Source of the DNA: an uncultured Spartobacteria bacterium
Lineage (GTDB): Bacteria > Verrucomicrobiota > Verrucomicrobiia > Chthoniobacterales > Chthoniobacteraceae
NCBI GenBank assembly: GCA_903919125.1
Contig: CAIXGS010000005.1
Span: forward strand, 1-64,000
DNA: 64,000 bases
Direction of reading: 5' to 3'
The translations under genes and the position numbers were made by a program. The notes below the pieces were generated by a model, which did not search any database, was not told the DNA's origin, and worked only from the letters and a program-made list of their open reading frames with translations. Every line of letters starts with the position of its first letter. Within the stretch, counting starts at the first letter, position 1. Below, piece after piece: positions 2,011 through 18,940 of the stretch.

Positions 2011-2197
2011 ATTCGCCCAGCCATCTGCATCTACCACTGAACGGCTGACCGCGGCACTCTTGCCGTCGTGCAGCAATCTCTCCCAATCAAACGGCGCCGC
2101 AACGCTTCGGAAATCCGCGAACTAGTCGTCCGCCTCCATCAGAGCGGCCTTTCGCGGACTGATTTCGTCCGTAATGAAGGCATCTGCCTAGCCACTC
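2011..2197 (+). repeat. Direct repeat copy 1 (187 bp), left part of IS66 element
   Basis: Begins ATTCGCCCAGCC and covers the leader and first part of tnpA. It aligns without gaps to 2594-2780 with about 22 mismatches by hand count, roughly 88 percent identity. The first 39 bases are identical in both copies. Confidence 0.85.
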
Positions 2198-2427
2198 TTT
2201 GTTCGTATTTGAAACGCGAATCCTCTGCGACCGCTCGGACGAGTCGCCTGGGAACTCCCGCATTTTTCGAACTCGAACCCGACACACTTCGCTCCCTGAC
2301 AGGCTCCCAACAAGCCACCTACCGCCTGTGCCTCACCGGCGGCCTCGTCTTGGAGCTTCACAGGGGTTTCTCCCGCAAGGAGGTGGTCGTCCTCCTGGCG
2401 GTTCTCGCCAAGGCCGGTCTACAATGA
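2068..2427 (+). CDS. tnpA: IS66 family accessory protein TnpA
   Basis: The 119-residue protein has the helix-turn-helix layout of the IS66 first ORF (RELVVRLHQSGLSRTDFVRN and CLATLCSYLKR), followed by a short C-terminal domain with LELHRGFSRK. IS66 elements carry three genes; TnpA is needed together with TnpB for transposition. The start is GTG. The stop overlaps the tnpB start in an ATGA, the normal IS66 coupling. This copy has an intact frame, but the rest of the element is broken, so it is probably not functional. Confidence 0.8.
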   Translation: MQQSLPIKRRRNASEIRELVVRLHQSGLSRTDFVRNEGICLATLCSYLKRESSATARTSRLGTPAFFELEPDTLRSLTGSQQATYRLCLTGGLVLELHRGFSRKEVVVLLAVLAKAGLQ

Positions 2428-2593
2428 TCCCCCTCGGCCCTGCCACCCGCGTTTTCGTGGCGCTCGAACCTGTCGACATGCGCAAAGGCTACGACGGCCT
2501 TTATGGACTGGTCGCCCATCACCTCGGCGAAGATCCCCGCTCCGGCCATCTTTTTGTGTTCACTAACAGCCAGCGCAACCGGCTCAAAATCGT
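2424..2593 (+). pseudogene. tnpB: IS66 TnpB, N-terminal fragment
   Basis: From the ATG overlapping the tnpA stop, the frame gives a typical IS66 TnpB start with VDMRKGYDGLYGLV and HLFVFTNSQRNRLKI. Normal TnpB is about 115 residues; here homology stops after about 57 residues. The frame then runs into the second copy of the tnpA leader at 2594. The protein is therefore truncated by a rearrangement. Confidence 0.8.
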
Positions 2594-2780
2594 ATTCGCC
2601 CAGCCATCTGCATCTACCACTGAACGGCTGACTGCGGCACTGTTGCCGTCATGCAGCAATCTTTCCCATCTAAGCGGCGTAGCAGCGCCTCGGAAATTCG
2701 CGAACTGGTGGGCCGGTTCCATCAGAGCGGCCTTTCGCGGGCTGATTTCGTCCGTAATGAAGGCATTTGTCTGGCCACTC
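2594..2780 (+). repeat. Direct repeat copy 2 (187 bp), left part of IS66 element
   Basis: Second, diverged copy of 2011-2197, inserted exactly where tnpB is cut. The divergence of about 12 percent argues against a recent tandem duplication and fits recombination between two related elements. Confidence 0.85.
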
Positions 2781-2793
2781 CCGGATACTATCT
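2651..2793 (+). pseudogene. tnpA: Second IS66 tnpA copy, N-terminal fragment
   Basis: ATG at 2651 opens a frame closely similar to the first tnpA (RELVGRFHQSGLSRADFVRN, then CLAT and YL). Similarity ends near 2793; the remaining frame to 2845 is unrelated and overlaps the 3' end of the gene on the other strand. It is about 48 residues of the original 119. Confidence 0.75.
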
Positions 2794-2828
2794 CCCCGAG
2801 AGTGTCCAAAACGGTCACTCAGAGGTTA

Positions 2829-4799
2829 CTAAGGCTTCGCCATAATCTGACCGATCGCCCACTTCAAGTTGTAAGCCCATTGAAATCCCATCGCACTACC
2901 AAATATTCCTGTCCATGGGACGATTGCCCAAAAGGCTACGAGGCAAGAGAGGACCTTTCGCTGAAAAGTGGTGACGACACCGAAAAGCGCACACAGGGCA
3001 GCGGCGCTGAGTCCATAAAACCACCCTTCAACTAAGCGGCTGCGGATCCAGACGGAAAGCCAAAAATCAACTTTACCACCCAGAAAGTGATACCCATAAA
3101 GACCACACATGAACCCCAGAAGCATGCACTCAACTAAGCAAATAAGTAGCCATTGCCTACGTGTGTTCGGTTTCGCTATCGCGTGGAGCAAAAAGACAAG
3201 AGCAGCTAAAAGAAGCGGCAAACCAAAGGCGGCTATGAAATGAGATGGTGACGAAGCACTCCATAGAACGTTCGCTCCCTGCGGGACCGGAAGTTTTGAA
3301 TTAATGATTCCGAGATTGAATGTCCCGGGCGGAACACCCCTGATAAGTAAATCAACACCGAGGATTTTGAAGAGCCCAGTCTTTGGGGCAAGAATATTCC
3401 CTAGGACGGTCAGTCCGACCACCGCTCCGGTGAGGATGCTTGCAGCAACACTCACCCGTGACTTCAGAAGCGGCCATCCAGACATCGCATTAGTTCTCAA
3501 GCTGGGACAATTTCGTTTTACAACATAAAGACCTATAGCTGTAAAAACGACGAGAAATAGAATATGATTAAATCCATAGTTTAACGATTGCATGTAAGGC
3601 AGAGGAAGGAACGCCAACATACAGGGCGCGAGAAAGAGAGGCACTCGACGGGCTATCTCCCATTTATCCAAAAAAAACATACCGCTAAGTCCGGCCATTA
3701 GTAGTAACGTTGCAAAAACATGGAGCGAAATAGAGACGAGCCCTGCGCCCAGAATACCGGCTACAATCAAGGAATTAACTTTCGGTGATCTTCCTCCACC
3801 TTTCCGAGAACGAGCATAAGCTACTACAAGAATTAACGGAGAGAGCGCACCTATCAGCCTAGCCGGGTGCGGCACAATGATCAAAGGGTGACCACTATCA
3901 AACACTGCCCAGTCAGCCCCAGGATTAATCGATAAGGTGCTTAAAAAAAACAAGCTGGCAACGATAGCAGCCTCGATTCGACGAAGCCCGAGACGGCGAA
4001 GGCACAAGACAGACAGAAGTAAGCCAGATACTTTAGCAAATCCTACCATCATCCAATAGGGGGTCAGTAGGTCGGAGTATTGGTCGAAGAGTCCCGAAAA
4101 CAGAATAGGGTGCAGAAAGCAGATCTCATCGTAATGCTGCCCAAAGAGGGGTAGTTTCGCCGCGGGGGCAGGAAATCTATGGAAGTCTCCGAATATCGTT
4201 ACAAATGTAAAACCTGTTGCATCACCGGTTGCACAGCAGATTCCCCATACGAGAGTGATAAACAAAGCCAGAATGGGCCAAAGGGGTATGATTTTCCTGA
4301 GTGTGAATCGAAATCCAATACTTTGTTTAACGTCCGTGTTTAAATTTGTGCGCTGACGAATGAAAAACCTCCACGCGCAAAATCCAGCGAGCGAGCCTAA
4401 CTCTATCCAGGCGGCCCAGCGATTAGGAAAGAGGATCGTGAGCAGTCGATTGCACGGTGCAAGCAGAAGATAGCCTGGCAAAAACCCAGCCATCAAAAGG
4501 CCGGTACCCATCTTCGCGCTTCTCATAACCAGAACAGGCCGAACAAACAGAATAGCCCCTAAAAATGCCGCACCAAACATGTATGCCGCGCATAATGACG
4601 CAGAAAGCGGACTCACATTGCCCGACCAAATCCGAGGCAAACCATGCGCAGGATCCGACCAAATATGATGTACCTCCGTGTACAGTTGCTTCATGTAAGC
4701 CCCCTCTGGTCTCCATCCGATCACAATCCACACTGCAGCGGATAAGATAAAAGCGAGAACAAACCCCACCGAGGCAAGAGAAACGTCACGTTTTTCCAT
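2829..4799 (-). CDS. Large multi-pass membrane protein, function unknown
   Basis: The product has about 656 residues with many predicted membrane helices and few long soluble loops. I see no clear catalytic motif. Its size and its place among glycosyltransferases suggest a polytopic glycan protein such as a GT-C enzyme or polymerase, but this is inference. The frame also opens at a TTG at 4820; the ATG at 4799 (MEKRDVSLAS) is the better start. Neither has a visible ribosome binding site. It is divergent from the glycosyltransferase at 4907, and its 3' end abuts the IS66 scar. Confidence 0.55.
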   Translation of the reverse strand: MEKRDVSLASVGFVLAFILSAAVWIVIGWRPEGAYMKQLYTEVHHIWSDPAHGLPRIWSGNVSPLSASLCAAYMFGAAFLGAILFVRPVLVMRSAKMGTGLLMAGFLPGYLLLAPCNRLLTILFPNRWAAWIELGSLAGFCAWRFFIRQRTNLNTDVKQSIGFRFTLRKIIPLWPILALFITLVWGICCATGDATGFTFVTIFGDFHRFPAPAAKLPLFGQHYDEICFLHPILFSGLFDQYSDLLTPYWMMVGFAKVSGLLLSVLCLRRLGLRRIEAAIVASLFFLSTLSINPGADWAVFDSGHPLIIVPHPARLIGALSPLILVVAYARSRKGGGRSPKVNSLIVAGILGAGLVSISLHVFATLLLMAGLSGMFFLDKWEIARRVPLFLAPCMLAFLPLPYMQSLNYGFNHILFLVVFTAIGLYVVKRNCPSLRTNAMSGWPLLKSRVSVAASILTGAVVGLTVLGNILAPKTGLFKILGVDLLIRGVPPGTFNLGIINSKLPVPQGANVLWSASSPSHFIAAFGLPLLLAALVFLLHAIAKPNTRRQWLLICLVECMLLGFMCGLYGYHFLGGKVDFWLSVWIRSRLVEGWFYGLSAAALCALFGVVTTFQRKVLSCLVAFWAIVPWTGIFGSAMGFQWAYNLKWAIGQIMAKP

Positions 4800-4906: not shown

Positions 4907-5731
4907 ATGAGACTGCCCTCGCCACCCCGCCCCAAAGTGCTTCTTTTTATTCCGGCCTACAATTGCGAACATCAATTAAAACGGGTGCTAAATGCAGTGG
5001 CAAAAGACGCCGCCATTTTTAAGGAGGTACTGATTGTCGACAACGGAAGTACGGATGGATCCGTCCAAGCGGTGATAAAAGCAGCATCACAGATTCCAAC
5101 CGCTTTTACCCTTGTCCAAAACAGGCAAAATTTAAACCTCGGGGGTTCTCACAAAGTTGCTTTCCGATATGCCATTGAAAATGGCTTTGATTTTCTGGTC
5201 GTCCTTCACGGCGACGATCAAGCGGACATCAAGGATGTGCTTCCCTTGCTAAAGAACATTGAAGTGGATACCGCAGCGGATTGCTGGTTGGGGTCGCGCT
5301 TTATGCGCGGCTCACGACTCCACGGTTACTCTTCCATTAGGACGCTCGGAAACTGGTTTTTTAATGGCCTCTTCTCTTTTGTCACCGGCCGCTGGATTTC
5401 CGATCTGGGGTCCGGATTAAACGTGTATTCCGTTCGGTCTCTTGCATCTGCCCATTGGACAGGGTTCAAAAACAATCTCACTTTCAATTATTTTCTCACC
5501 CTGGCCTATGCCCATTGGCGATGGAACTGTACTTTTTTCCCAATCACCTGGAGGGAAACAGACCAAGTATCCAATGTAAGGGCCTTCCGACAGGTGAGAG
5601 AAATGCTCGTACTGCTGTTCCATTATATATTTAACAAGAGCTGGATCTTTACACAAAACCACGACGCCATCGGGCCGGACGGCTACGAAGCGAACGTCAC
5701 GTTTAGACACTCGACGCCAAAGCCGGAGTAA
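4907..5731 (+). CDS. Glycosyltransferase family 2, dolichol-phosphate-mannose-synthase-like
   Basis: A 274-residue cytoplasmic or membrane-associated GT-A enzyme. The N-terminal Rossmann-like strand (VLLFIPAYNCE), the VDNGSTDGS motif near residue 45-53, and the metal-binding VLHGDDQAD near residue 102-110 are the standard GT2 signatures. In this subgroup the enzyme moves a sugar from a nucleotide donor to a lipid phosphate or a growing glycan. No C-terminal membrane helices follow the catalytic domain, unlike GtrB types. It is followed by a hairpin and a likely promoter, so it may be monocistronic. The donor sugar cannot be told. Confidence 0.85.
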   Translation: MRLPSPPRPKVLLFIPAYNCEHQLKRVLNAVAKDAAIFKEVLIVDNGSTDGSVQAVIKAASQIPTAFTLVQNRQNLNLGGSHKVAFRYAIENGFDFLVVLHGDDQADIKDVLPLLKNIEVDTAADCWLGSRFMRGSRLHGYSSIRTLGNWFFNGLFSFVTGRWISDLGSGLNVYSVRSLASAHWTGFKNNLTFNYFLTLAYAHWRWNCTFFPITWRETDQVSNVRAFRQVREMLVLLFHYIFNKSWIFTQNHDAIGPDGYEANVTFRHSTPKPE

Positions 5732-5751
5732 TGCAAAAAATGCGGCTCCGG

Positions 5752-5783
5752 ATAAACTACCCTCAGCAGAGCTGAGGTATAAT
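5752..5783 (+). promoter_or_regulatory. Dyad next to a TATAAT box upstream of the GatZ-like gene
   Basis: A perfect 7-bp inverted repeat with a 3-base loop (CCTCAGC aga GCTGAGG, 5761-5777) is followed directly by TATAAT at 5778-5783. The dyad fills the place of the spacer between the -10 box and a weak -35. It may be an operator for a dyad-binding regulator or the end of the upstream transcript. It lacks the T-run of an intrinsic terminator. Confidence 0.4.
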
Positions 5784-5827
5784 AGCGGATAAGCGACTGC
5801 GAACGGGATGAATGGTTAAAACCGCAT

Positions 5828-6997
5828 ATGATTCACCAAAAACTGGAGTCTTTTCTAAGGAAACGGCGCTGCACTCTTCTCGGGGTGGGGCCCATGAGCG
5901 TCCATTGTGTGGATGCAGCTATTGAACTGGCAAATGAACACGAGGCTCCACTCATCCTGATCGCCAGTCGACGTCAAATCGACGGAGAGGAATTTGGAGG
6001 TGGTTATGTCAATCACTGGACAACGGAACAGTTCGCCGAATACGTGATCGAGCGCGACAAGAAGGGCAAAATCCTGCTCGCGCGCGACCACGGCGGGCCC
6101 TGGCAAAACAATTCCGAAAAGGAGGCGGGACTCGGGCTGCGGAGAGCCATGGAGTCAGCCAAGTCTTCCTATCTGACAGACCTGCAGTCAGGCTTTCAAA
6201 TATTGCACATCGATCCAAGCGTTGACATTCACAGCAAGCCAGACATCGACGAAGTGCTGGAGCGCGTATCTGAACTCTACGAGTACTGCTGGAGGGAGGC
6301 GCAGGCACTGCGTCAGGAGGTGATCTTTGAAATCGGAACAGAGGAACAAAGTGGCAGCACCAACTCCCAAGAGGAACTCTCTTACACTCTCAACGCGGTG
6401 CAGTCGTTCTGCTCGAAAAATCGGCTGCCCCCGCCCTCATTTGTAGTCATTCAAGCCGGAACACGCGTCATGGAGACACGCAACATAGGCTCCTTCGATA
6501 GCCCTGTGCGGGTAGCCAACGAAATTCCCGCTGAAATCCAGCTGCCGAAGATGATTGAAATCTGCAACAGCCACCAGATCTTCATGAAGGCCCACAACAC
6601 GGACTACCTTTCCGACGATGGCCTGCAGTGGCACCCGCGCTTGGGGATCCACGCTGCAAACGTGGCACCCGAATTCGGAGTGGCCGAAACTCGGGCGCTG
6701 GTGGAATGCCTCGAATCCAACGCCCTAGGCCAGCTGAGTGAAAGGTTCCTGAGCCTTTCTTTCCAGTCCGGAAAGTGGGACAAATGGATGCTGCCGGAAA
6801 CCAAGGCGACGGACCGCGACCGTGGCATCATTGCCGGTCACTATGTTTTCGCAGCGCCCGAGTGCGTTGAAATCAAGGCGGAAGCGGCCCGCTCACTTGC
6901 GTCGAAGGGGGTCTGCCTAGACAGCGTGCTCAAAAATGCGGTGAAAACTTCCATTCGCAGATACATGCGTCACTTCCGTTTGGAGAAGCTTCAATGA
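5828..6997 (+). CDS. Divergent GatZ/KbaZ-family (tagatose-bisphosphate aldolase-like) protein
   Basis: The 389-residue protein aligns in order with the GatZ/KbaZ TIM-barrel family: LARDHGGP (family GGDHLGP), LHIDPS (HLDCS), FEIGTEEQ (VIGTE), KAHNTDYL (EAHSTDYQ) and the HAANVAPEFG region (KVGPALTF). Classical GatZ and KbaZ are about 420 residues and act as the non-catalytic partner of a class II aldolase in galactitol or N-acetylgalactosamine catabolism. Here no GatY/KbaY partner, kinase or transporter is nearby. The gene overlaps a glycosyltransferase by ATGA and sits in a glycan locus. I infer a biosynthetic role, perhaps an aldolase or isomerase acting on a phosphorylated sugar. Confidence 0.7.
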   Translation: MIHQKLESFLRKRRCTLLGVGPMSVHCVDAAIELANEHEAPLILIASRRQIDGEEFGGGYVNHWTTEQFAEYVIERDKKGKILLARDHGGPWQNNSEKEAGLGLRRAMESAKSSYLTDLQSGFQILHIDPSVDIHSKPDIDEVLERVSELYEYCWREAQALRQEVIFEIGTEEQSGSTNSQEELSYTLNAVQSFCSKNRLPPPSFVVIQAGTRVMETRNIGSFDSPVRVANEIPAEIQLPKMIEICNSHQIFMKAHNTDYLSDDGLQWHPRLGIHAANVAPEFGVAETRALVECLESNALGQLSERFLSLSFQSGKWDKWMLPETKATDRDRGIIAGHYVFAAPECVEIKAEAARSLASKGVCLDSVLKNAVKTSIRRYMRHFRLEKLQ

Positions 6998-7818
6998 AAC
7001 GCGTAGCCACCATCGTTCTCAACCGCAACCTGCCGGAAGTCACCGACAGGCTGTGCGAACACTTGGAGCGCAACGACGGCGACTGCACCGATGTCTACGT
7101 GGTCGAGGCAGGTTCCGACGACAACCGGCTCTCCAAGTTCGCCACATGGCATGCCACATCACCCGAAGCCCGCTCCCTCGGGCTCCGCTACTCTAGGGGC
7201 ATGAATTACGGCCTCAGCCAGCTCTGGAAAGAAGGCAGGTTCGAACAGTACGACGCCTTCTTTCTGCTGACCAACGACACCGAATTGCAGGAACGCCCCA
7301 GCGTCGCCCACCTCACCTCCATCCTCGACGCCCACCCCAAGGTCGGCATCCTGTCCCCCTGCGCCCCGCGCTGGGGCGAGAGGCTCCTCCTTCAAGAGCA
7401 CTCCATCCGCTACTTCTGGTTCATCCACAATAACGCCCTTCTCCTGAGGCGGAGTTTCATCGAATCCATTTTCAATCTTGAAACGCCTGACGCCATGGGC
7501 TTCGTCTTTGACGGCACGAATTTTCGCGGCTACGGATCAGAGAGCGAACTCATTGCCAAGGCCTACGCCAACGACTGGGCAGCGGCCATCACACGAGACG
7601 TCTGGGCCAGCGAAAACGAGTCGCACCTCCTCGACAGAGCCGACGTCATTAAAACCGAAGAGTACGAACTCAACCTCAAGCTCTACGTGGAAGAAGGCCG
7701 CCGCTGGATGCGCAACAAATACGGGTTCAACAGCCGCTGGTCCATGCAGCAGTATGTCAAAAGCTTCTACGACAGTTTCTTCGCGTTCCACCCGGAATGC
7801 GAGCCGTTCCGAATCTAG
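6994..7818 (+). CDS. Glycosyltransferase, GT2-like
   Basis: The 274-residue protein begins with a nucleotide-binding fold (ATIVLNRNLPEVTDRL), has YVVEAGSDDN in place of the usual GT2 VDNxSxD, and FLLTNDTEL as the metal-binding DxD-like motif near residue 90. This resembles rhamnosyl/galactofuranosyl-type GT2 enzymes. It starts inside the stop of the GatZ-like gene (ATGA overlap) with a GGAGA at about 10 bases upstream, so the two are translationally coupled and probably act in one pathway. It converges on the minus-strand operon ending at 7884. Confidence 0.75.
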   Translation: MKRVATIVLNRNLPEVTDRLCEHLERNDGDCTDVYVVEAGSDDNRLSKFATWHATSPEARSLGLRYSRGMNYGLSQLWKEGRFEQYDAFFLLTNDTELQERPSVAHLTSILDAHPKVGILSPCAPRWGERLLLQEHSIRYFWFIHNNALLLRRSFIESIFNLETPDAMGFVFDGTNFRGYGSESELIAKAYANDWAAAITRDVWASENESHLLDRADVIKTEEYELNLKLYVEEGRRWMRNKYGFNSRWSMQQYVKSFYDSFFAFHPECEPFRI

Positions 7819-7883
7819 GGCGCTTTAGCGGACTTGCACCGGCCCCCAAACAGACGACCAAACGCGCAACGCTTGAGGGCATG

Positions 7884-8702
7884 CTACGCCTTCCTTTGCA
7901 GAAAGCTTCCGGCGATCACAGAGTTCAACAGTTCGACGGGAGGCAAAATGCCCGCGTAAATCTCAAACTGACGCTGCAGCTGAAACTTGGCCATCTCAAC
8001 GCCGGGCACGGTCCAGAGTCCCAGTTGACGTGCAGACGTCTCCAGCGGCGAAGCCTCGGCGCGCACCCTCAGGTCAAAAAGACCGCCGCAACACGGCAGC
8101 CATTCCCGAATCACATCCTCCGGAGCATCGCCGGAAGGGGTCGCATTGATCAATAATTCAACCCGCTCCAAAGACTTTCGCCGAGCCTCCCTGCCCGCCA
8201 ACGCGGGCACGCCAAGCAAACGCGCCTTCGCCTTCGCCCGGGCTAGATTGCGCGCACCGATCCGGATTTCCGAAACGCCCGCCGCCTGCGCAGCACGGAC
8301 AACGGAATTCACCACGGAACCACTGCCGTAAATCAAAACCGAATGCACGGGCCGCTGCCGCAGCACCTCCAGACAGCCCGAATAGTCCGTATTGAATCCT
8401 TTCAACACCCCCGCAGTGTTCAAAATGGTGTTCACGGAGCGAATCTCCTCAGCCTCCGGAGAAAGCTCGTCCAGATGCGGGATGATGGCGCTTTTGAGAG
8501 GCATACTTACAGAGCAGCCCGCGACGTCCAATGTGCGCAATGTGCGCGCAAGCACCCCGGCTCCCGGTGCCTTTCTCGGAATGTAAACGGCGTTCACGCC
8601 GTAATGCGCAAACAAGGCGTTAAAAACCGTCGCCCCGAAATTACCGGGTTGAGCTGCAACCGAAAGGAAGAGCCGTGTTTGGTTGTTAACGGGCGGATTC
8701 AT
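7884..8702 (-). CDS. Shikimate-dehydrogenase-like oxidoreductase, altered substrate site
   Basis: A 272-residue AroE-fold protein. Conserved parts are SVSMPLK with the catalytic-type lysine at 70, NT at 91-92, FNTDYSG with the catalytic-type aspartate at 106, a glycine-rich NAD(P) loop (YGSGSVVNSV, about 125-134) and INATPSGD. The usual shikimate-binding motif with two serines (HSxSP) is replaced by QPGNFGATVF (18-27), so shikimate itself is unlikely to be the substrate. The ATG at 8702 lies inside the end of the nucleotidyltransferase gene (17-bp overlap), which makes it the third gene of a coupled operon. I infer a dehydrogenase for a keto or cyclitol-type intermediate of the same pathway. 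Confidence 0.75.
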   Translation of the reverse strand: MNPPVNNQTRLFLSVAAQPGNFGATVFNALFAHYGVNAVYIPRKAPGAGVLARTLRTLDVAGCSVSMPLKSAIIPHLDELSPEAEEIRSVNTILNTAGVLKGFNTDYSGCLEVLRQRPVHSVLIYGSGSVVNSVVRAAQAAGVSEIRIGARNLARAKAKARLLGVPALAGREARRKSLERVELLINATPSGDAPEDVIREWLPCCGGLFDLRVRAEASPLETSARQLGLWTVPGVEMAKFQLQRQFEIYAGILPPVELLNSVIAGSFLQRKA

Positions 8703-10278
8703 GCAAGGCGCCCTGCAAACTCTGCCGTCCCAGCGCATAGAGAAGCTTGTCAAAGGGGTAGTGGTGAAGAGGCGCCATGTTCAAGAAAATCAGCGCCGTC
8801 ATCAAGTTCACACGCTCCCAATCGAGCCCCTGCTCCTGCACAAACGCACGCAAAATCCCGAAGTACTCGCCGGCCAGATGCCGCGAGGCAAAGTCGAAGG
8901 TAATTTCAGCGCCGCTCTCTTCATATGCGAAAAGGCCCTTCTTGATAAAATCATAGGCCAGCAAAATCCCACCATTGAGCTTCGCTAAATCGTAATACTG
9001 GTCTCCAGAGTTCACGTCGCCCCCAAAGTCCTGTCGCCAATCCAGAAGCAGAAAGGCGTCGCCAGCCCTGTCGTAGATGATGTTGTCAAACTGGAGGTCG
9101 CCGTGAAAGAAAGTGCTGCGCCCGTTCAACAACCGAGGCCACGGCACCCCGCCAAGCAAAGAAGAAACCGACGCCACGCTCTCCCCGTTGATCACAGATG
9201 CTACGTCGGACCCGGGATATTTCTGGTGGTAAAAAGCAATGCGCTCAAACGTCTTGGCTCGATAGAATGCCTCGCAATGCGCTTCAAACCCAGCAGCAGT
9301 CACCCCTTCGGCCTTCCACAGATTCTGTTCCAGCCAAGAAAGAAGTTTCCGGAATATCGCGGGCGAATTCTCCTGATAGAGCGTTTTCCCGGGTACGAAA
9401 TCATACGCGTAAAACTGCCCGGAGCAGAACGCGATCTCAGGAAACACAGAAGGATTCAAACGCGCGCGCGCCACACGCTTCTGCACGATGGAGGCGTTTT
9501 CAAAAAACTTAACCACCCTGCCATTCACAATGTACAGAAATTCGCCCACCTTGCTGAAGTCGTACTCTTGAAACTTTGCCGCCGCCTTGTGGAAACGCGC
9601 CTCGGTTCCCAAATCCGTCCACTCCAAAGTTCGGGCCTCGGCCGTCTTGTTCTCCACGAGAGCGCGAATGCCGTTGGAGATCTGGTGTTCCCCTCCTACG
9701 AGAATGTCCTTTTTAAGCGACGGCCAGAACGCTCCGTAATCATGGATGAAACAGAGACCTATGAACGCCTCCGCGCGGCATGCTGGTGGGGTGGTCTTGT
9801 CGAAAATATCGAGAATCAGCGGCGCTGAATCCGCCGTCGCGGCCGCGAGGGCAAAGTTGCAGTAACTCGGAGCCTCCTCCGGCGGAACCACAGCAGTTCC
9901 AAACCAATTCCGGTCCGCATTAAAGGGGATATCCCCATCCCAAAGAGTGTCGCACGAAACAAAGAAAAACGGCTTCTGTAAAAGCGGCTCGCAGAGCGAG
10001 AGGGAATAACCCGGGCCGGAGCCAGACCCCTCATAACGGTCAACTTCGACAAAGTGAAGGCGCCCTGCGGGGTGGGCCGCAGACAGATAAGCCCTGACCT
10101 GCGCTCCATGATACCCCAACGCAATCACAAACTCCGCCTCCGGGGGAAAGCGCTTGATAATGTGCGAAATCACAGCCTCCTGACCAAGAGGAAGCAGAGC
10201 CTTGTTCAATCCGGAGCCAAGCGCGCCCATGCGAGTGCCTTTTCCAGCCGTTAAAATGCAGACCGTCGGAGCGTCCAT
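8686..10278 (-). CDS. Nucleotidyltransferase fused to an APH-type small-molecule kinase
   Basis: The 530-residue protein has two domains. Residues 1 to about 230 are a sugar-nucleotidyltransferase fold with the P-loop-like ILTAGKGTRMG (8-18), the NKALLPLG lysine, and VSCDTLWDGD. Residues from about 245 are an aminoglycoside-phosphotransferase/choline-kinase fold with FFHGDLQFDNIIYD (near 390) and LLDWRQDFGGD (near 410). Such a fusion suggests that one polypeptide phosphorylates a small alcohol or sugar and then activates it with CTP or another NTP, as LicA and LicC do separately for choline. It is three bases after the cupin gene and overlaps the AroE-like gene. No LicD-type transferase is present. 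The substrate is unknown. Confidence 0.8.
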   Translation of the reverse strand: MDAPTVCILTAGKGTRMGALGSGLNKALLPLGQEAVISHIIKRFPPEAEFVIALGYHGAQVRAYLSAAHPAGRLHFVEVDRYEGSGSGPGYSLSLCEPLLQKPFFFVSCDTLWDGDIPFNADRNWFGTAVVPPEEAPSYCNFALAAATADSAPLILDIFDKTTPPACRAEAFIGLCFIHDYGAFWPSLKKDILVGGEHQISNGIRALVENKTAEARTLEWTDLGTEARFHKAAAKFQEYDFSKVGEFLYIVNGRVVKFFENASIVQKRVARARLNPSVFPEIAFCSGQFYAYDFVPGKTLYQENSPAIFRKLLSWLEQNLWKAEGVTAAGFEAHCEAFYRAKTFERIAFYHQKYPGSDVASVINGESVASVSSLLGGVPWPRLLNGRSTFFHGDLQFDNIIYDRAGDAFLLLDWRQDFGGDVNSGDQYYDLAKLNGGILLAYDFIKKGLFAYEESGAEITFDFASRHLAGEYFGILRAFVQEQGLDWERVNLMTALIFLNMAPLHHYPFDKLLYALGRQSLQGALHESAR

Positions 10279-10281
10279 GGA

Positions 10282-11037
10282 TCAGCTCGAATGTTCGGTT
10301 TCAATGTGACCGTCAGGGCGGGCCGTATCGTCGCTGACACGCACCACATCGTCGAGAAACGGGGTGGAGACCTCGTACAAAAGAATGTCCGTAACGGCCT
10401 CCAGTCGATGCAGGACAAAAGGAGTGACATCCACGGATGAAACGGGAGTCAAAGGTAGCGTAACCATGCTTTCCAGCGAAGGCGCATCGATTGATACATT
10501 GGGATCCGCCTTGTAGTGCAACATCGCATTACCTGCGAAAAGGATGTTGGTTTCCTGCTTGTGCCGGTGGTACTGCAGGCTGGTTTTCGTCCCAGCCTTC
10601 ACAAAAATTTCTTTGAAAGCGTACTGCGAGTGGCCGGCATGAAACCACAATTCATGCCCCCAAGGTTTGGAAACTTTTTTAATTTCAGACGCCTTGAAAT
10701 GCCTCGCCTCCGAGGCATGCGCAGCCGCCTCGGGAGACCCTGCGACAAGGAGTTCAACGTCTCCACCCTCAGCGGTGACGCTCGCGCTCTGGTGCACAAG
10801 CTGAACGGCCTCTCGGGCGTGCACTGCATGACTTAGAGCATCGAACTCGACGGAAGCCCCGCCTTGGGCAGCGAACACGAAGACACTATAAAAGCCCTTT
10901 TCCGTGGGGAGCTTCACCGTCTCGCCTGCTTTCAAGCGGAGATGAAAATAAACATAGGGCGCTAAGGCAAACGTATGGCGAGAAAAGGATTCGAGCGAGT
11001 GGCTGGCCACCACGTTTCCTCCGTAATTTTGATTCAT
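10282..11037 (-). CDS. Cupin protein, type II phosphomannose-isomerase-like
   Basis: The 251-residue product has a C-terminal cupin domain with KPWGHELWF (124-132), FVKAGTKTSLQYHRHKQET and possible metal ligands His157, His159 and Glu162. This resembles the isomerase half of ManC-type enzymes. The N-terminal half is another weak beta-rich domain, so it may be a bicupin. It is first in the minus-strand operon with the nucleotidyltransferase-kinase and AroE-like genes. A sugar-phosphate isomerase or epimerase role in the same pathway is inferred. The 272-bp gap upstream is shared with the divergent HAD gene and should hold both promoters. Confidence 0.7.
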   Translation of the reverse strand: MNQNYGGNVVASHSLESFSRHTFALAPYVYFHLRLKAGETVKLPTEKGFYSVFVFAAQGGASVEFDALSHAVHAREAVQLVHQSASVTAEGGDVELLVAGSPEAAAHASEARHFKASEIKKVSKPWGHELWFHAGHSQYAFKEIFVKAGTKTSLQYHRHKQETNILFAGNAMLHYKADPNVSIDAPSLESMVTLPLTPVSSVDVTPFVLHRLEAVTDILLYEVSTPFLDDVVRVSDDTARPDGHIETEHSS

Positions 11038-11309
11038 ATATGTTTGGGAAAACTAATCAGAGATTGCGAGCAGTCTGTCTTCCATCGAGGGCGATTTCAA
11101 AGCAACGCAGAATGTGCTTGGCGTGATTCTGTGCGAAACTCAGCTTTCTAAAAGCAGAAACAGGCGTCGAGAGAATGTCACAAAAAATCACGCCTCCCCT
11201 GAGATCCTCTCCCTTATCGCTTTCGGTGGCTCTTTGTCTGCTCTGATCTGCTCTGCCCATTCCTGTTTGCTTGAATCCCACACGGCGTCTGCCTAAAACT
11301 GCGCGCCCA

Positions 11310-11858
11310 ATGTCTGACTCCACCCCTCACCCCGCGCCGAAACCCTCCTTTTTCATTTTGGACGTGGACGGTGTCATGACCTCAGGCACTTTTTTCTACA
11401 GTGCCGAGGGCAAGATGCTGAAGGTCTTCGGCGCCGACGATCATGACGCCCTCTCCCTGTTGAAGCCCTTCATGAAAATCCGTTTCGTCACAGGGGACCG
11501 CAAGGGATTCGCCATCTCCCAGAAGCGCATCGTCGACGACATGGGTTTCGAACTCGACCTTGTCAGCACCATCCGCCGCGTCGACTGGATCGCCGAAAGA
11601 TATCCGTTGGATTCCGTCATCTACATGGGAGACGGGATTTTCGACCACTACGTCATGCGCAAGGTGGCGTACGCCCTCGCGCCCGCAAACGCTGACCCCA
11701 TGGCAAAGCAGGCGGCCCACTACGTCACGGCCCGACCAGGTGGCGACCGCGCGGTGGCCGAAGCCTGCCTGCACCTGCTCGAACGCTTTTTCGTTCCTTA
11801 CGACCCCCTTCAACTTCCGGGAGCCCAACATAAAATGTCGGGTGAATGGACGGTTTGA
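11310..11858 (+). CDS. KdsC-like HAD phosphatase
   Basis: A 182-residue HAD-family hydrolase of the small, capless KdsC type. Motif I is FILDVDGVMTSG with Asp18 and Asp20; RFVTGDRKG gives motif II; YMGDGIFDHYVM (Asp108, Asp112) gives motif IV; APANADP follows as in KDO-8-phosphate phosphatases. KdsC enzymes remove phosphate from 3-deoxy sugar acid phosphates before CMP activation. The start chosen is ATG 11310 rather than the TTG at 11271. It faces away from the cupin operon and overlaps the broken FAD oxidoreductase gene by 17 bp. It probably dephosphorylates an intermediate of the same pathway; whether it is the true KdsC of the cell is not shown. Confidence 0.8.
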   Translation: MSDSTPHPAPKPSFFILDVDGVMTSGTFFYSAEGKMLKVFGADDHDALSLLKPFMKIRFVTGDRKGFAISQKRIVDDMGFELDLVSTIRRVDWIAERYPLDSVIYMGDGIFDHYVMRKVAYALAPANADPMAKQAAHYVTARPGGDRAVAEACLHLLERFFVPYDPLQLPGAQHKMSGEWTV

Positions 11859-12251
11859 CGCTGCTGCGCCTCGGAACCATCCAGACTTCCTCGTCATCGG
11901 CGGCGGCGTCATCGGCGTCAGCATCGCCCGTGAACTCAAAAGCCGCTTCGCCAATGCCAATGTCGTCGTCCTCGAAAAGGAACGCGCGCTCGGCATGCAC
12001 TCCAGCGGCCGTAACAGCGGCGTCCTGCACGTGGGCTTCTACTACACCGCCGACAGCCTCAAGGCGCGCTTCACCCGCGAGGGCAACCGCTCCCTGACGC
12101 GCTTCTGCGAAGAGCACCAACTGCCTCTCAACCATTGCGGCAAATTCGTCGTCGACCGTTTCGACGCAGACCTTCCCCAGCTCGGCTAACTCTTGCGCCG
12201 AGCCCGGCGCACCGGCGTCCCTATGGAAGACTTCTCCACTGAAGAAGTCAG
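11842..12251 (+). pseudogene. FAD-dependent oxidoreductase (LhgO-like), broken N-terminal part
   Basis: From a GTG at 11842 the frame shows FLVIGGGVIGVSIAREL, VVVLEKERALGMHSSGRN and GFYYTADSLKARFTREG. It is very similar to the intact paralogue at 17735-18940. A TAA at 12187-12189 stands exactly where the paralogue has a glutamate codon (QLDELLRRA against QLG-stop-LLRRA). Homology continues past the stop to GVPMEDFSTEEVS and then ends abruptly at about 12251, where an unrelated minus-strand gene fragment begins. The gene is thus damaged twice. It probably belonged to an operon with the HAD phosphatase. Confidence 0.85.
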
Positions 12252-12726: not shown

Positions 12727-13032
12727 ATGCTTACGGCCAGTGTGGCTACTGCTAAAAATGAATTGTCCCGTCTGTTGCGGCATGTCAAACGCGGCGAGTC
12801 TGTTCTCATTACCGAAAGAAACAGACCAGTGGCCACTCTACAGCCGGTTGTCGCGGCGGGAACCGACGGCCAAAACGCAACGCTCTGTGCTCTTCATGAA
12901 TCTGGAATTCTCACCCTTCCGAGCGGGGCTCCTCTGAACGTGGCCTCTTTTTTAGCCGCTCCTCGGGCAGTTCTTGCTGAGTCCTTAGATCTGCGCAGTG
13001 CCATTTTGGCAGAGCGGGCGGAGGAGCGATGA
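12727..13032 (+). CDS. Phd/YefM-type antitoxin
   Basis: The 101-residue protein shows the Phd/YefM N-terminal fold: SVATAKNELSRLLRHVKRGE, then VLITERNRPVATLQPV. This part binds DNA and dimerises; the less conserved C-terminal part (about 45-101) would wrap the toxin. The last four bases overlap the VapC start (ATGA). Phd-type antitoxins paired with PIN toxins are common. It is intact, unlike the other toxin-antitoxin loci in this window. Confidence 0.88.
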   Translation: MLTASVATAKNELSRLLRHVKRGESVLITERNRPVATLQPVVAAGTDGQNATLCALHESGILTLPSGAPLNVASFLAAPRAVLAESLDLRSAILAERAEER

Positions 13033-13451
13033 ACTTCTGGGATAGCTCAGCTATCGTACCTCTTTTGGTGAACGAACCCGATTCCGTACGCAGGACGGAG
13101 TCCCTAATGGCCGACACAACCCTCATAGTTTGGTGGGGGAGTTCGATCGAATGTGAATCGGCCATCCAGCGACGCTTTCGAGACGGCAGTTTGAATTCTC
13201 TGGGTGCGCGGTTTGCCCGGGAACAACTGTCTGTCCTCAGCTCGGCTTGGCATGAACTCCTGCCTTCCGCGCCGATTCGAACGCTGGCAATCCGCCTTTT
13301 ACGTACGCATCCGCTCCGCGCAGCAGACGCATTGCAATTGGCCGCCGCCTTGTTCTTTGCGCAAGAGAGTCGATCGTCCGTTTCCTTTTTAACGGCAGAC
13401 AGCCGTCTCGCAGATGCTGCTGAAATCGAAGGTATCTGTGTGCTGCGCTGA
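13029..13451 (+). CDS. vapC: PIN-domain ribonuclease toxin, VapC type
   Basis: The 140-residue protein has the acidic residues of a PIN domain in order: Asp5 in FWDSSAIVPLL, a glutamate in SSIECESAIQRR, RAADALQLAAAL, and LTADSRLADAA. VapC toxins cut specific RNAs and stop translation; they are held by the antitoxin from the upstream gene. A strong GGAGGAG sits seven bases before the overlapping start, so translation is well coupled to the antitoxin. Confidence 0.9.
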   Translation: MNFWDSSAIVPLLVNEPDSVRRTESLMADTTLIVWWGSSIECESAIQRRFRDGSLNSLGARFAREQLSVLSSAWHELLPSAPIRTLAIRLLRTHPLRAADALQLAAALFFAQESRSSVSFLTADSRLADAAEIEGICVLR

Positions 13452-17490: not shown

Positions 17491-17734
17491 CTAAATCATA
17501 ACGCCCATGGGTGTAAAGAGTTGTCTGTAAAAGGCCGCACGAGGTTGCGGATGTCCGTCCAATGCCGAAAACTGAAGGTGCTAATCAAAAACAGCACCGG
17601 CCATGGATGAACAAAGTGCTTAGATGTGATGCTTTCCGTTTGGCGGGTGTTGGATTTGCGCCGTGATCCAATCGGGGTAAAGATGAGGGTTGAGCGGGGG
17701 ATGTCTGATGTTCAGGTTAGAGAGATTGGGTTCT

Positions 17735-18940
17735 ATGTCTAAGCATCCGGATTTTCTAGTAATTGGTGGGGGGATCATCGGGGTGAGCATTGCTCGCCGG
17801 TTGAGGGCCGTTTTTGAGGGGGCGTCGGTTACGGTGTTGGAAAAGGAAAGGGCGTTGGGAATGCATTCCAGCGGGCGCAATAGCGGGGTGATTCATGCGG
17901 GATTTTATTACTCGGCGGATTCTCTCAAAGCGCAGTTCACCCGACAGGGGAACCTTGCGCTGACGCAGTTTTGCGAGGAGCACGGACTGCCGCTCCACCG
18001 GTGTGGAAAATTAGTGGTGGCCCGTTCGGAGGCGGACTTGCCACAATTGGACGAATTGCTGCGGCGCGCCAAGGCGAATCAGGTTCCTTTGGAAAGTATC
18101 ACGGAAGAGCAGGCGCGTGAAATCGAGCCTCGGGTCAAGACGGTTCAGCGGGCACTTTTTTCGCCGAGCACGTCCACGGCGGATCCGCTGGCGGTGCTGG
18201 AAGCGATGCGCGTGGAGGCCGAGCGTGAAGGGGTGAAGTTTACGCTGGGGACGCTCTTCGCCGGAAAGGGGCAGGGGAGGTTTGAGTCGAGGACGGGCAA
18301 GTCAACCGGCGGGTATGTGATCAATGCGGCGGGTCTTCACGCGGATTCCATCGCGCGGCAATATGGGTTTTCCCAGCATTACCGCATCATTCCTTTTAAG
18401 GGGTTGTACCTTTATGGGGATGAGACGGCTGGTCTTTTTCGCACGAACATTTATCCCGTGCCAGATTTGCGGAATCCGTTTCTGGGGGTTCACTTTACGT
18501 TGACTGTGGATGGTCACGTAAAAATCGGCCCCACAGCGATACCCGCGTTTTGGCGCGAGCAGTATGGAGGGTTGGAAAATTTTGATTTGGTGGATTGCGT
18601 GGAGACGCTGACAAGGGAGTTGGGGTTGATCGCGTTTGCGGGGTTCGATTTCCGGCGGTTGGCGGTGGAGGAGTTGCAGAAGTATAATAGACGCCATTTG
18701 GTGAAGCTGGCGGGAGAACTCGCGACGCAGGTCGAGGCATCGGCGTATCGGAAGTGGGGGCGGCCTGGGATTCGGGCGCAGTTGATGGATATTCGCACGA
18801 GAAAGTTGGAGATGGACTTCGTCTTGGAGGGAGATGCGAAGTCGTTTCATGTGTTGAACGCGGTGTCGCCTGGATGGACTTGCGCCATTCCGTTTGCGGC
18901 GCACGTTTGCGCTCGGATTAGCGGACTGCTGGGAGGTTAG
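17735..18940 (+). CDS. FAD-dependent L-2-hydroxyglutarate oxidase-like protein (LhgO/DAO family)
   Basis: The 401-residue protein has an FAD-binding GGGIIGVSIA loop near the N-terminus, VTVLEKERALGMHSSGRNSG, the IIPFKGLYLYG region, and a C-terminal GRPGIRAQLMD segment with VSPGWTCAIPFAAHV. These are features of the LhgO/L2HGDH group in the D-amino-acid-oxidase superfamily, which oxidises 2-hydroxy acids at the membrane or in the cytosol. The ATG at 17735 is chosen over the GTG-region start at 17690 because homology begins there. The paralogue fragment at 11842 is about 70 percent identical. Possible roles are repair of 2-hydroxyglutarate made by SerA, or oxidation of a hydroxy acid in glycan synthesis. 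Confidence 0.82.
   Translation: MSKHPDFLVIGGGIIGVSIARRLRAVFEGASVTVLEKERALGMHSSGRNSGVIHAGFYYSADSLKAQFTRQGNLALTQFCEEHGLPLHRCGKLVVARSEADLPQLDELLRRAKANQVPLESITEEQAREIEPRVKTVQRALFSPSTSTADPLAVLEAMRVEAEREGVKFTLGTLFAGKGQGRFESRTGKSTGGYVINAAGLHADSIARQYGFSQHYRIIPFKGLYLYGDETAGLFRTNIYPVPDLRNPFLGVHFTLTVDGHVKIGPTAIPAFWREQYGGLENFDLVDCVETLTRELGLIAFAGFDFRRLAVEELQKYNRRHLVKLAGELATQVEASAYRKWGRPGIRAQLMDIRTRKLEMDFVLEGDAKSFHVLNAVSPGWTCAIPFAAHVCARISGLLGG

Follow-up and report, generated by a model that had tools for sequence, protein, structure and literature searches.

The stretch of DNA analysed here, to which we refer as the window, comprises 64,000 nucleotides from an uncultured Spartobacteria bacterium (Verrucomicrobiota, Chthoniobacteraceae; assembly GCA_903919125.1, 4.34 Mb; contig CAIXGS010000005.1, positions 1 to 64,000). 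Between positions 4907 and 11858 it holds seven genes, each an open reading frame, that together encode a putative module for the synthesis and transfer of an activated sugar. The forward strand carries a glycosyltransferase of family GT2 (4907..5731; PF00535 8.7e-17, alignment and synteny), a GatZ/KbaZ-like protein, predicted to be a metal-dependent ketose-phosphate C4 epimerase or aldolase (5828..6997; PF08013), and a probable divergent GT-A glycosyltransferase (6994..7818; from synteny and the sub-cut-off PF00535 match of its homologue L033, L-numbers designating the loci that were compared). These are followed on the reverse strand, in the direction of transcription, by a cupin of the mannose-6-phosphate-isomerase C-terminal type, a predicted aldose-ketose isomerase (10282..11037; PF01050 1.4e-6), a single protein that joins a nucleotidyltransferase (N-terminal half) to an APH-type kinase (C-terminal half; 8686..10278; PF12804 and PF01636), and an AroE-fold dehydrogenase of the HI0607 type, an optional part of the module (7884..8702; PF08501 2.3e-14 and 1npy). 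A KdsC-like HAD phosphatase (11310..11858; TIGR01670 4.4e-17, below cut-off) completes the set, again on the forward strand.

An earlier reading of the letters alone (hereafter the sequence-only reading) had seen here a packed set of named enzyme families, which is confirmed by the open frames and by the Pfam and NCBIfam scans, in that the latter assign six of the seven proteins to the families it had named. The proteins are remote from characterised members: every NCBIfam cut-off shown for the six assigned proteins was missed. The cupin, fusion and AroE-like genes, which had been described as a coupled operon, are indeed so arranged, with a gap of 3 nt between the cupin and fusion genes and an overlap of 17 nt between the AroE-like gene and the end of the fusion gene, provided that the former begins at the ATG at 8702, i.e. 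the start suggested by its homologues. In the case of the claimed coupling of the KbaZ-like gene to a glycosyltransferase gene, the overlap is there (4 nt, 6994-6997) and the identity of the 6994-7818 product as a glycosyltransferase is the weakest element. Because the ratio of nonsynonymous to synonymous substitution (dN/dS), relative to a locus from the same genus (L004), is 0.03-0.15 for six of the genes (the GT2 gene at 4907 was not measurable), these six are maintained as proteins under purifying selection. The scans also agree with the claim that the set matches no standard pathway for rhamnose, heptose, 3-deoxy-D-manno-octulosonic acid (KDO) or sialic acid: none of the signature families of these pathways was found above cut-off in the seven proteins, and the only similarity to standard sugar pathways was a sub-cut-off one to the KdsC and RmlA/GlmU types.

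The KbaZ-like protein scores above the PF08013 cut-off (37.3 versus 26.7 bits). For GatZ and KbaZ of E. coli, which are fructose-6-phosphate 4-epimerases that yield tagatose-6-phosphate, a catalytic Asp87 and the metal ligands His88, Glu171 and His257 have been proposed (PMC11907403). In the alignment with GatZ and KbaZ, the KbaZ-like proteins retain Asp87, His88 and His257 (GatZ numbering) in all 22 rows; position 171 is, as read by eye, occupied by Glu or Asp. The sequence-only reading had placed either carbon-carbon bond formation or isomerisation at the first step; because C4 epimerisation of sugar phosphates is the known activity of the relatives (PMC11907403), we prefer epimerisation to net bond formation as a guess for this step. 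Our best guess from the alignment is that the KbaZ-like protein would carry out a retro-aldol/aldol reaction that depends on a metal and has another ketose phosphate as its substrate. In the tree of these proteins GatZ and KbaZ stand clearly apart (100/100), support for the fork with the module proteins is low (82/83) and the viral branches are long; we therefore claim no direction of transfer.

Phosphatases of the KdsC family act on KDO-8-phosphate and on the 9-phosphate of 2-keto-3-deoxy-D-glycero-D-galacto-nononic acid (KDN). The window phosphatase resembles them below the cut-off, both in the case of TIGR01670 (62.4 versus 106.95 bits) and in that of NF058599, and the HAD motifs DxDG and GDxxxD are present in 4 of 4 aligned rows and in 15 of the 15 frames of the synteny-scanned set. 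The cupin exceeds the PF01050 cut-off (28.9 versus 23.6 bits) and misses the curated phosphomannose isomerase models (26.2 versus 372.95 bits). Its residues Gln155, His157, Glu162 and His210 are invariant in five of five rows; the QxH..E set, which we take to be the metal ligands of phosphomannose isomerases, is found in all five rows and in 64 of 64 viral loci. In other loci only the C-terminal half of the cupin is present, and the cupin of the viral locus L122 shows a weak similarity to D-lyxose isomerase (9e-4, below cut-off). A search of the PDB by sequence found no relative of the cupin.

The N-terminal half of the fusion protein matches the MobA-like NTP (nucleoside triphosphate) transferase family PF12804 (2.2e-9). 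Its AlphaFold2 (AF2) model (predicted local distance difference test, pLDDT, 87) suggests for this half the fold of sugar-1-phosphate nucleotidylyltransferases (Z up to 24.6, 5i1f), with the MurU structures 4y7u and 8hhd among the matches, and the NCBIfam model of MurU is matched at 8.9e-6, short of its curated cut-off. The C-terminal half carries the kinase motifs HGDxxxxN and DW and reaches PF01636 at 3e-4 (21.1 bits, under the cut-off of 23.2), a cut-off that is exceeded by the fusions of the viral loci L037 and L122. The fold matches listed contain no kinase chain; they are filled by the N-terminal half and thus uninformative on the C-terminal one. The nucleotidyltransferase signature G-x-G-x-R is kept in 78 of 81 viral fusion frames and 17 of 19 other frames, and HGDxxxxN in 80 of 81 and 19 of 19, respectively. 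By analogy with the AmgK/MurU pair, the two halves together could convert a free sugar into a nucleoside-diphosphate (NDP) sugar.

The AroE-like protein matches Shikimate_dh_N (PF08501), misses the aroE model TIGR00507 (103.7 bits versus a cut-off of 200.2) and has HI0607 as its top match in the PDB (1npy, E 3.3e-82; next match 5.7e-55). This closest solved relative, also called SdhL, is an AroE-like protein of unknown role, and we know of no link between it and a nucleotide-sugar module. In line with the changed substrate pocket that had been read from the letters, the N-terminal stretch of the window protein is unlike that of canonical AroE in the alignments; Lys87 and Asp123, presumably the catalytic pair, are invariant in 6 of 6 rows. 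A more distant solved match is the AroE relative 5-ketofructose reductase (7cok, 1.2e-45); PMC7954740 describes a reductase with kinship to the shikimate dehydrogenases and reports that a different putative shikimate dehydrogenase did not act on 5-ketofructose. A gene that bears the name sdhL adjoins the L-sorbose operon in E. coli ST648 (PMC12817954). The AroE-like protein could plausibly catalyse a step at a ketone or alcohol group, either of a ketose or of an NDP-sugar.

Homologues of the GT2 gene (4907-5731) adjoin the module in L004, L005, L007 and L008. The 6994-7818 protein matched no Pfam or NCBIfam model; of two homologues scanned, that in L033 gave PF00535 at 4.5e-4 (below cut-off) and that in L006 no match, hhalign against the neighbouring GT2 protein gave a probability of 36.6, AF2 yielded a poor model (pLDDT 41) and a comparison with the PDB by sequence yielded a chance-level match only. 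Genes of this type lie beside the module in 9 of the 14 bacterial genomes introduced below, and a divergent GT-A glycosyltransferase is the probable identity.

The search across genomes that the sequence-only reading had put forward was run, and the KbaZ-like, fusion, KdsC-like and cupin families were found to recur together, in bacteria as well as on viral contigs. In a search of the genome collection the fusion had five clear relatives, besides two short and weak matches (L009, L010), namely in a Chthoniobacteraceae metagenome-assembled genome (MAG) of the same genus (L004; the family belongs to the Verrucomicrobiota), a Spartobacteria MAG (L005) and MAGs of Roizmanbacteria, Rhodospirillaceae and Magnetococcales. 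All five genomes encode a KbaZ-like protein, two of them on other contigs. Of 12 genomes from the genus, 3 have the fusion, and in all it was found in 3 of 97 relatives; a plasmid search with the fusion gave three partial matches only. Two even draws of genomes contained the KbaZ-like gene (E up to 1e-30) in 2 of 288 and 7 of 299 cases and the fusion (E up to 1e-40) in 2 of 288 and 8 of 299, and in a third draw the KbaZ-like gene was found in 3 of 286 genomes. After removal of three genomes that had entered the sample through the fusion query (G000, G378 and G379, G-numbers denoting genomes), both genes were present in 6 of 584 genomes, the fusion alone in one (G509, a weak match) and neither in 577 (Fisher 1.3e-13), where the fusion profile (A10) contained neighbours of KbaZ hits and could thus favour KbaZ-linked fusions.

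Profile scans of fetched stretches yielded 14 bacterial genomes with both genes (G000, G005, G011, G377, G378, G379, G144, G545, G513, G411, G399, G403, G917 and G908), and the KdsC-like and cupin genes were each found in all 14, with seven of the cupin scores being low (64-88 bits) and one KdsC-like gene running past the contig end. The AroE-like gene was seen in only 7 of these modules and a methyltransferase of the L004 type in 4, absences that are provisional because stretches were scanned rather than entire genomes. Co-directional arrangements are found for instance in L006 from Roizmanbacteria (phosphatase, KbaZ, glycosyltransferase, cupin, fusion, AroE) and in L061 (phosphatase, AroE, fusion, KbaZ, cupin, methyltransferase). 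Of the six families that had been presented as one set, the core four (phosphatase, KbaZ-like, cupin and fusion) hold up; an equal need for all six does not, because the AroE-like gene was seen in half of the genomes and the glycosyltransferases vary. A KbaZ-like gene of Streptantibioticus (L045) had none of the profiled partners in its neighbourhood, as judged by a profile scan of the stretch. Two distant bacteria share a gene for a B12-binding radical SAM (S-adenosylmethionine) protein beside the module (L004 6291-7856, identified by Pfam, and L008 4928-6577, which matches the L004 profile at 345 bits), and near the module in L006 (16845-20832) lie what we take to be phosphonate-like genes, i.e. 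for a fusion of phosphoenolpyruvate (PEP) mutase and nucleotidyltransferase, a phosphonopyruvate decarboxylase and an alcohol dehydrogenase.

Beyond the set of the sequence-only reading, the module is part of a wider cassette that is common to viruses. An earlier KbaZ scan of viral contigs had given three loci; a scan with the fusion profile gave 375 stretches in IMG/VR, whose label we follow for viral status. The viral counts refer to the best 80 of these 375 stretches and to genes within up to 6 kb of the fusion gene (one locus, L112, lies on the same contig as L037, and several loci hit contig ends inside the 6 kb). The KbaZ-like gene is present in 72 loci, in 71 of which it is co-stranded with the fusion, the cupin in 65 (64 in a second count), the AroE-like gene in 51 and the KdsC-like gene in 28. 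When the loci are grouped at 80% fusion identity, 46 viral groups result, of which 40 have the KbaZ-like gene, 36 the cupin, 25 the AroE-like and 19 the KdsC-like gene, next to a small HAD-like gene in 18, a NodU-type carbamoyltransferase in 13, and a SnoaL-like gene and a methyltransferase in 8 each. Cupin, fusion and KbaZ-like genes are also present in a GenBank record of a marine virus (Caudoviricetes according to its taxonomy line), and a 385-kb contig (L122) encodes cupin, fusion, AroE, KdsC, KbaZ and carbamoyltransferase in succession, with Pfam matches that fit all six (KbaZ at 1e-5, 24.9 bits, under the cut-off of 26.7). The His..Asp motif of KbaZ is kept in 72 of 72 viral copies and the Lys motif of AroE in 46 of 46. 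PHROGs places the fusion in nameless families, labels the cupin 'cysteine dioxygenase' and the HAD protein 'hydrolase', and has no match for the other three proteins.

The NodU-type carbamoyltransferase gene lies directly 3' of the KbaZ-like gene in L122 (9757-11229) and L100 (9643-11115) and is found in 37 of the 80 loci, which suggests an O-carbamoylated sugar. A SnoaL-like gene (PF12680) stands within the module both in a virus (L100, 7517-7855) and in a bacterium (L033, 5282-5614), and in 27 of the 80 viral loci. Near the viral modules of L037 (14575-15543) and L044 (10744-12756) there are genes that we presume to be for heptose activation, and the new sugar may there be made alongside heptose.

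The families, the retained catalytic residues, the gene coupling and the recurrent co-occurrence can be read directly from the sequences, and they lead us to propose that the module forms a pathway dedicated to a nucleotide sugar, for the entire route of which we consider the chances to be evenly balanced. The KbaZ-like metal enzyme would convert a ketose phosphate, i.e. fructose-6-phosphate or a pentulose or heptulose phosphate, to its C4 epimer by a retro-aldol and a subsequent aldol reaction, and the KdsC-like HAD phosphatase would strip the phosphate to leave the free sugar, of which the ketose and aldose forms would be interconverted by the cupin. The APH domain of the fusion would then phosphorylate the anomeric hydroxyl and its N-terminal domain would add a nucleoside monophosphate from an NTP to give the NDP-sugar. 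The AroE-like enzyme, in the half or so of the modules that have it, would oxidise or reduce a ketone or alcohol, and the sugar may be modified further by methyl- or carbamoyltransferases. Glycosyltransferases would then transfer it, in the bacterium to a surface glycan; in viruses the acceptor would be a glycan of the virion, DNA or the surface of the host. The order of the steps, the substrate and product, the nucleotide and the acceptor are what we infer. As judged from its genes, the cassette appears to behave as an epimerase-phosphatase-isomerase-kinase-nucleotidyltransferase route with loose family memberships, and seems to fit no characterised pathway. A search for a described counterpart found no account of this gene set in open-access papers; the subscription literature could hold one. 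The overall claim of a possible uncharacterised pathway to an activated sugar is thus supported, since neither the co-occurrence nor the literature refutes it.

Several points weigh against this route. No activity is known for any member of the cassette. The residues Glu44 and Lys279, common to GatZ and KbaZ, are lost in the KbaZ-like proteins (position 44 is Ile, Val or Ala and position 279 is Asn) and the window protein misses the curated cut-off of TIGR02810 (29.1 versus 568.8 bits), because of which its reaction may differ from that of GatZ/KbaZ. A search of the window genome for the L004-type methyltransferase, made at 1e-5 and without a positive control, found none. The best 80 of the 375 viral loci favour close relatives; the KdsC-like gene was not found in 52 of the 80, and only 19 of those 52 have the small HAD-like gene, the product of which, presumably a HAD protein on account of its motif, had no Pfam match in the one case scanned. 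The motif counts in viruses are 60 of 72 for DHxGP in KbaZ, 33 of 46 for N(T/S/A)D in AroE and 17 of 28 for GD(G/D)xxD in KdsC, which may mean that some viral copies are inactive or changed, or that the patterns are too narrow. Finally, the N-terminal half of the fusion also resembles LicC (1jyl, Z 23.0), an enzyme for choline.

The latter resemblance would suit a reading in which the fusion activates choline or some related alcohol in the manner of LicC and LicA, while the KbaZ-like, cupin and phosphatase genes nearby have a different purpose, as would the match of the L122 fusion to Pfam Choline_kinase (0.0023, below cut-off). Nevertheless, sugar enzymes of the GalU/RmlA/MurU type score equal to or above LicC in the fold search, the KbaZ-like gene and the fusion co-occur far above chance, also across separate contigs, and in viral operons the two are co-directional; we hold such a role to be quite improbable. 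A different alternative retains the pathway and changes its first step: the KbaZ-like protein would be a true synthase that joins a dihydroxyacetone-type donor to an aldehyde, the KdsC-like protein would dephosphorylate the resulting higher ketose or ulosonic acid, much as happens when KDO or KDN is made, and the remaining enzymes would activate it. The substrates of the KdsC family and the sub-cut-off matches to TIGR01670 and NF058599 are in keeping with this, and so are the altered pocket residues and the retro-aldol chemistry common to class II aldolases (PMC11907403). Yet earlier work cited in the same paper saw no aldolase activity of GatZ (PMC11907403), and the Pfam and NCBIfam scans of the window's module proteins matched neither a PEP-dependent synthase nor a CMP (cytidine monophosphate)-type transferase, such that we regard a synthase as unlikely.

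It is also conceivable that the neighbourhood is accidental, with the AroE-like protein being the shikimate enzyme and the HAD protein the KDO-8-phosphate phosphatase of the cell. The genome does encode a KDO-8-phosphate synthase, KdsA (347 bits, cut-off 314), because of which activity of the window phosphatase, the sole KdsC-family match of the genome, on KDO-8-phosphate may exist. However, two other AroE genes of the genome pass the curated cut-off that the window gene fails, the KdsC-like phosphatase tracks the fusion, being present in exactly 3 of the 12 genus members and in the same three (the remaining nine were not searched for KdsA), and the set recurs in unrelated bacteria and on viral contigs. 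On the grounds of the AroE cut-offs and the joint distribution of phosphatase and fusion, housekeeping shikimate and KDO enzymes were rejected as a full account, which we consider very improbable indeed.

The dedicated nucleotide-sugar pathway that we prefer has counterparts for some of its parts. AmgK and MurU, an anomeric kinase and a nucleotidyltransferase in the recycling of N-acetylmuramic acid, follow the same two-activity logic as the fusion but are separate proteins. The NDP-heptose pathway consists of an isomerase (GmhA), a kinase-nucleotidyltransferase fusion (HldE) and a HAD phosphatase (GmhB); it is alike in logic only, since the families differ and the proposed route would put the phosphatase ahead of the kinase. 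Phage RB69 has a nucleotidyltransferase-kinase-like protein, ORF53_52c, beside a sugar isomerase, as a proposed feeder of DNA arabinosylation by a pathway that is itself uncharacterised (PMC6024577; PMC13390438). It shares the fusion architecture (fold matches to ORF052c, TMt 0.61, and ORF053c, TMt 0.63), whereas an isomerase of the SIS type takes the place of the KbaZ, cupin, KdsC and AroE proteins of the module. In E. coli, GatZ or KbaZ together with a phosphatase leads to the production of tagatose (PMC11907403), a route that is alike in family, in the metal site of Asp-His plus His and in epimerising before dephosphorylating, but that employs the phosphatase HxpA and lacks activation (PMC11907403); the module differs in having other residues in place of Glu44 and Lys279 and in adding a kinase-nucleotidyltransferase. 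In the main text of a survey of 55 elucidated monosaccharide pathways, tagatose and cupin are absent (PMC7725333).

KbaZ-like proteins with 32.5-33.7% identity over near-full length are also encoded on replicons of Klebsiella, Listeria and Enterococcus (L040, L041 and L043), in catabolic-looking phosphotransferase system (PTS) operons. There a PTS of the fructose type is accompanied by transaldolase and transketolase in Klebsiella and by fructose-6-phosphate aldolase in Enterococcus. These genes are annotated as a non-catalytic aldolase subunit; their products may be ketose-phosphate epimerases as well. On a plasmid of a Sinorhizobium nodule strain (L042, 9016-12492) genes for a KbaZ-like protein (42% identity), a cupin, a DegT-type aminotransferase and a HAD hydrolase are consecutive, perhaps as an amino-sugar version.

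With regard to the surroundings of the module in the window, the KdsC-like gene is directly followed by a shortened copy of a flavin adenine dinucleotide (FAD) oxidoreductase gene (11860-12189), which matches positions 2-101 of the L-2-hydroxyglutarate oxidase model, i.e. about 100 residues, and then stops. A full-length relative lies 5.5 kb further (17690-18940; 316 bits, above cut-off), and no DNA match was found between the two genes. Beside the glycan genes, at 2068-3035, there are frames that we take to be remnants of an IS66-type transposon, and the small gene pair at 12727-13451 presumably encodes a Phd/YefM-like antitoxin and a PIN-domain toxin.

On a broader level, it is possible, and in our view rather doubtful, that the cassette is a virus-spread route to a sugar donor of no described pathway, C4-epimerised and optionally oxidised, methylated or carbamoylated, with which phages (some on contigs of >200 kb) would coat their DNA, their virions or the surface of the host and which bacteria would use for surface glycans. 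The cassette of four to five enzymes, which is found in three phylum-level bacterial groups and 46 viral groups, predicts a nucleotide sugar that has no name in curated models. If the proposal is true, it would give enzymes of the GatZ/KbaZ type a biosynthetic role and AroE-like proteins of the HI0607 type a testable class of substrates, and it would provide candidate genes for the decoration of viral glycans or DNA, with a bearing on the escape of phages from host defence.

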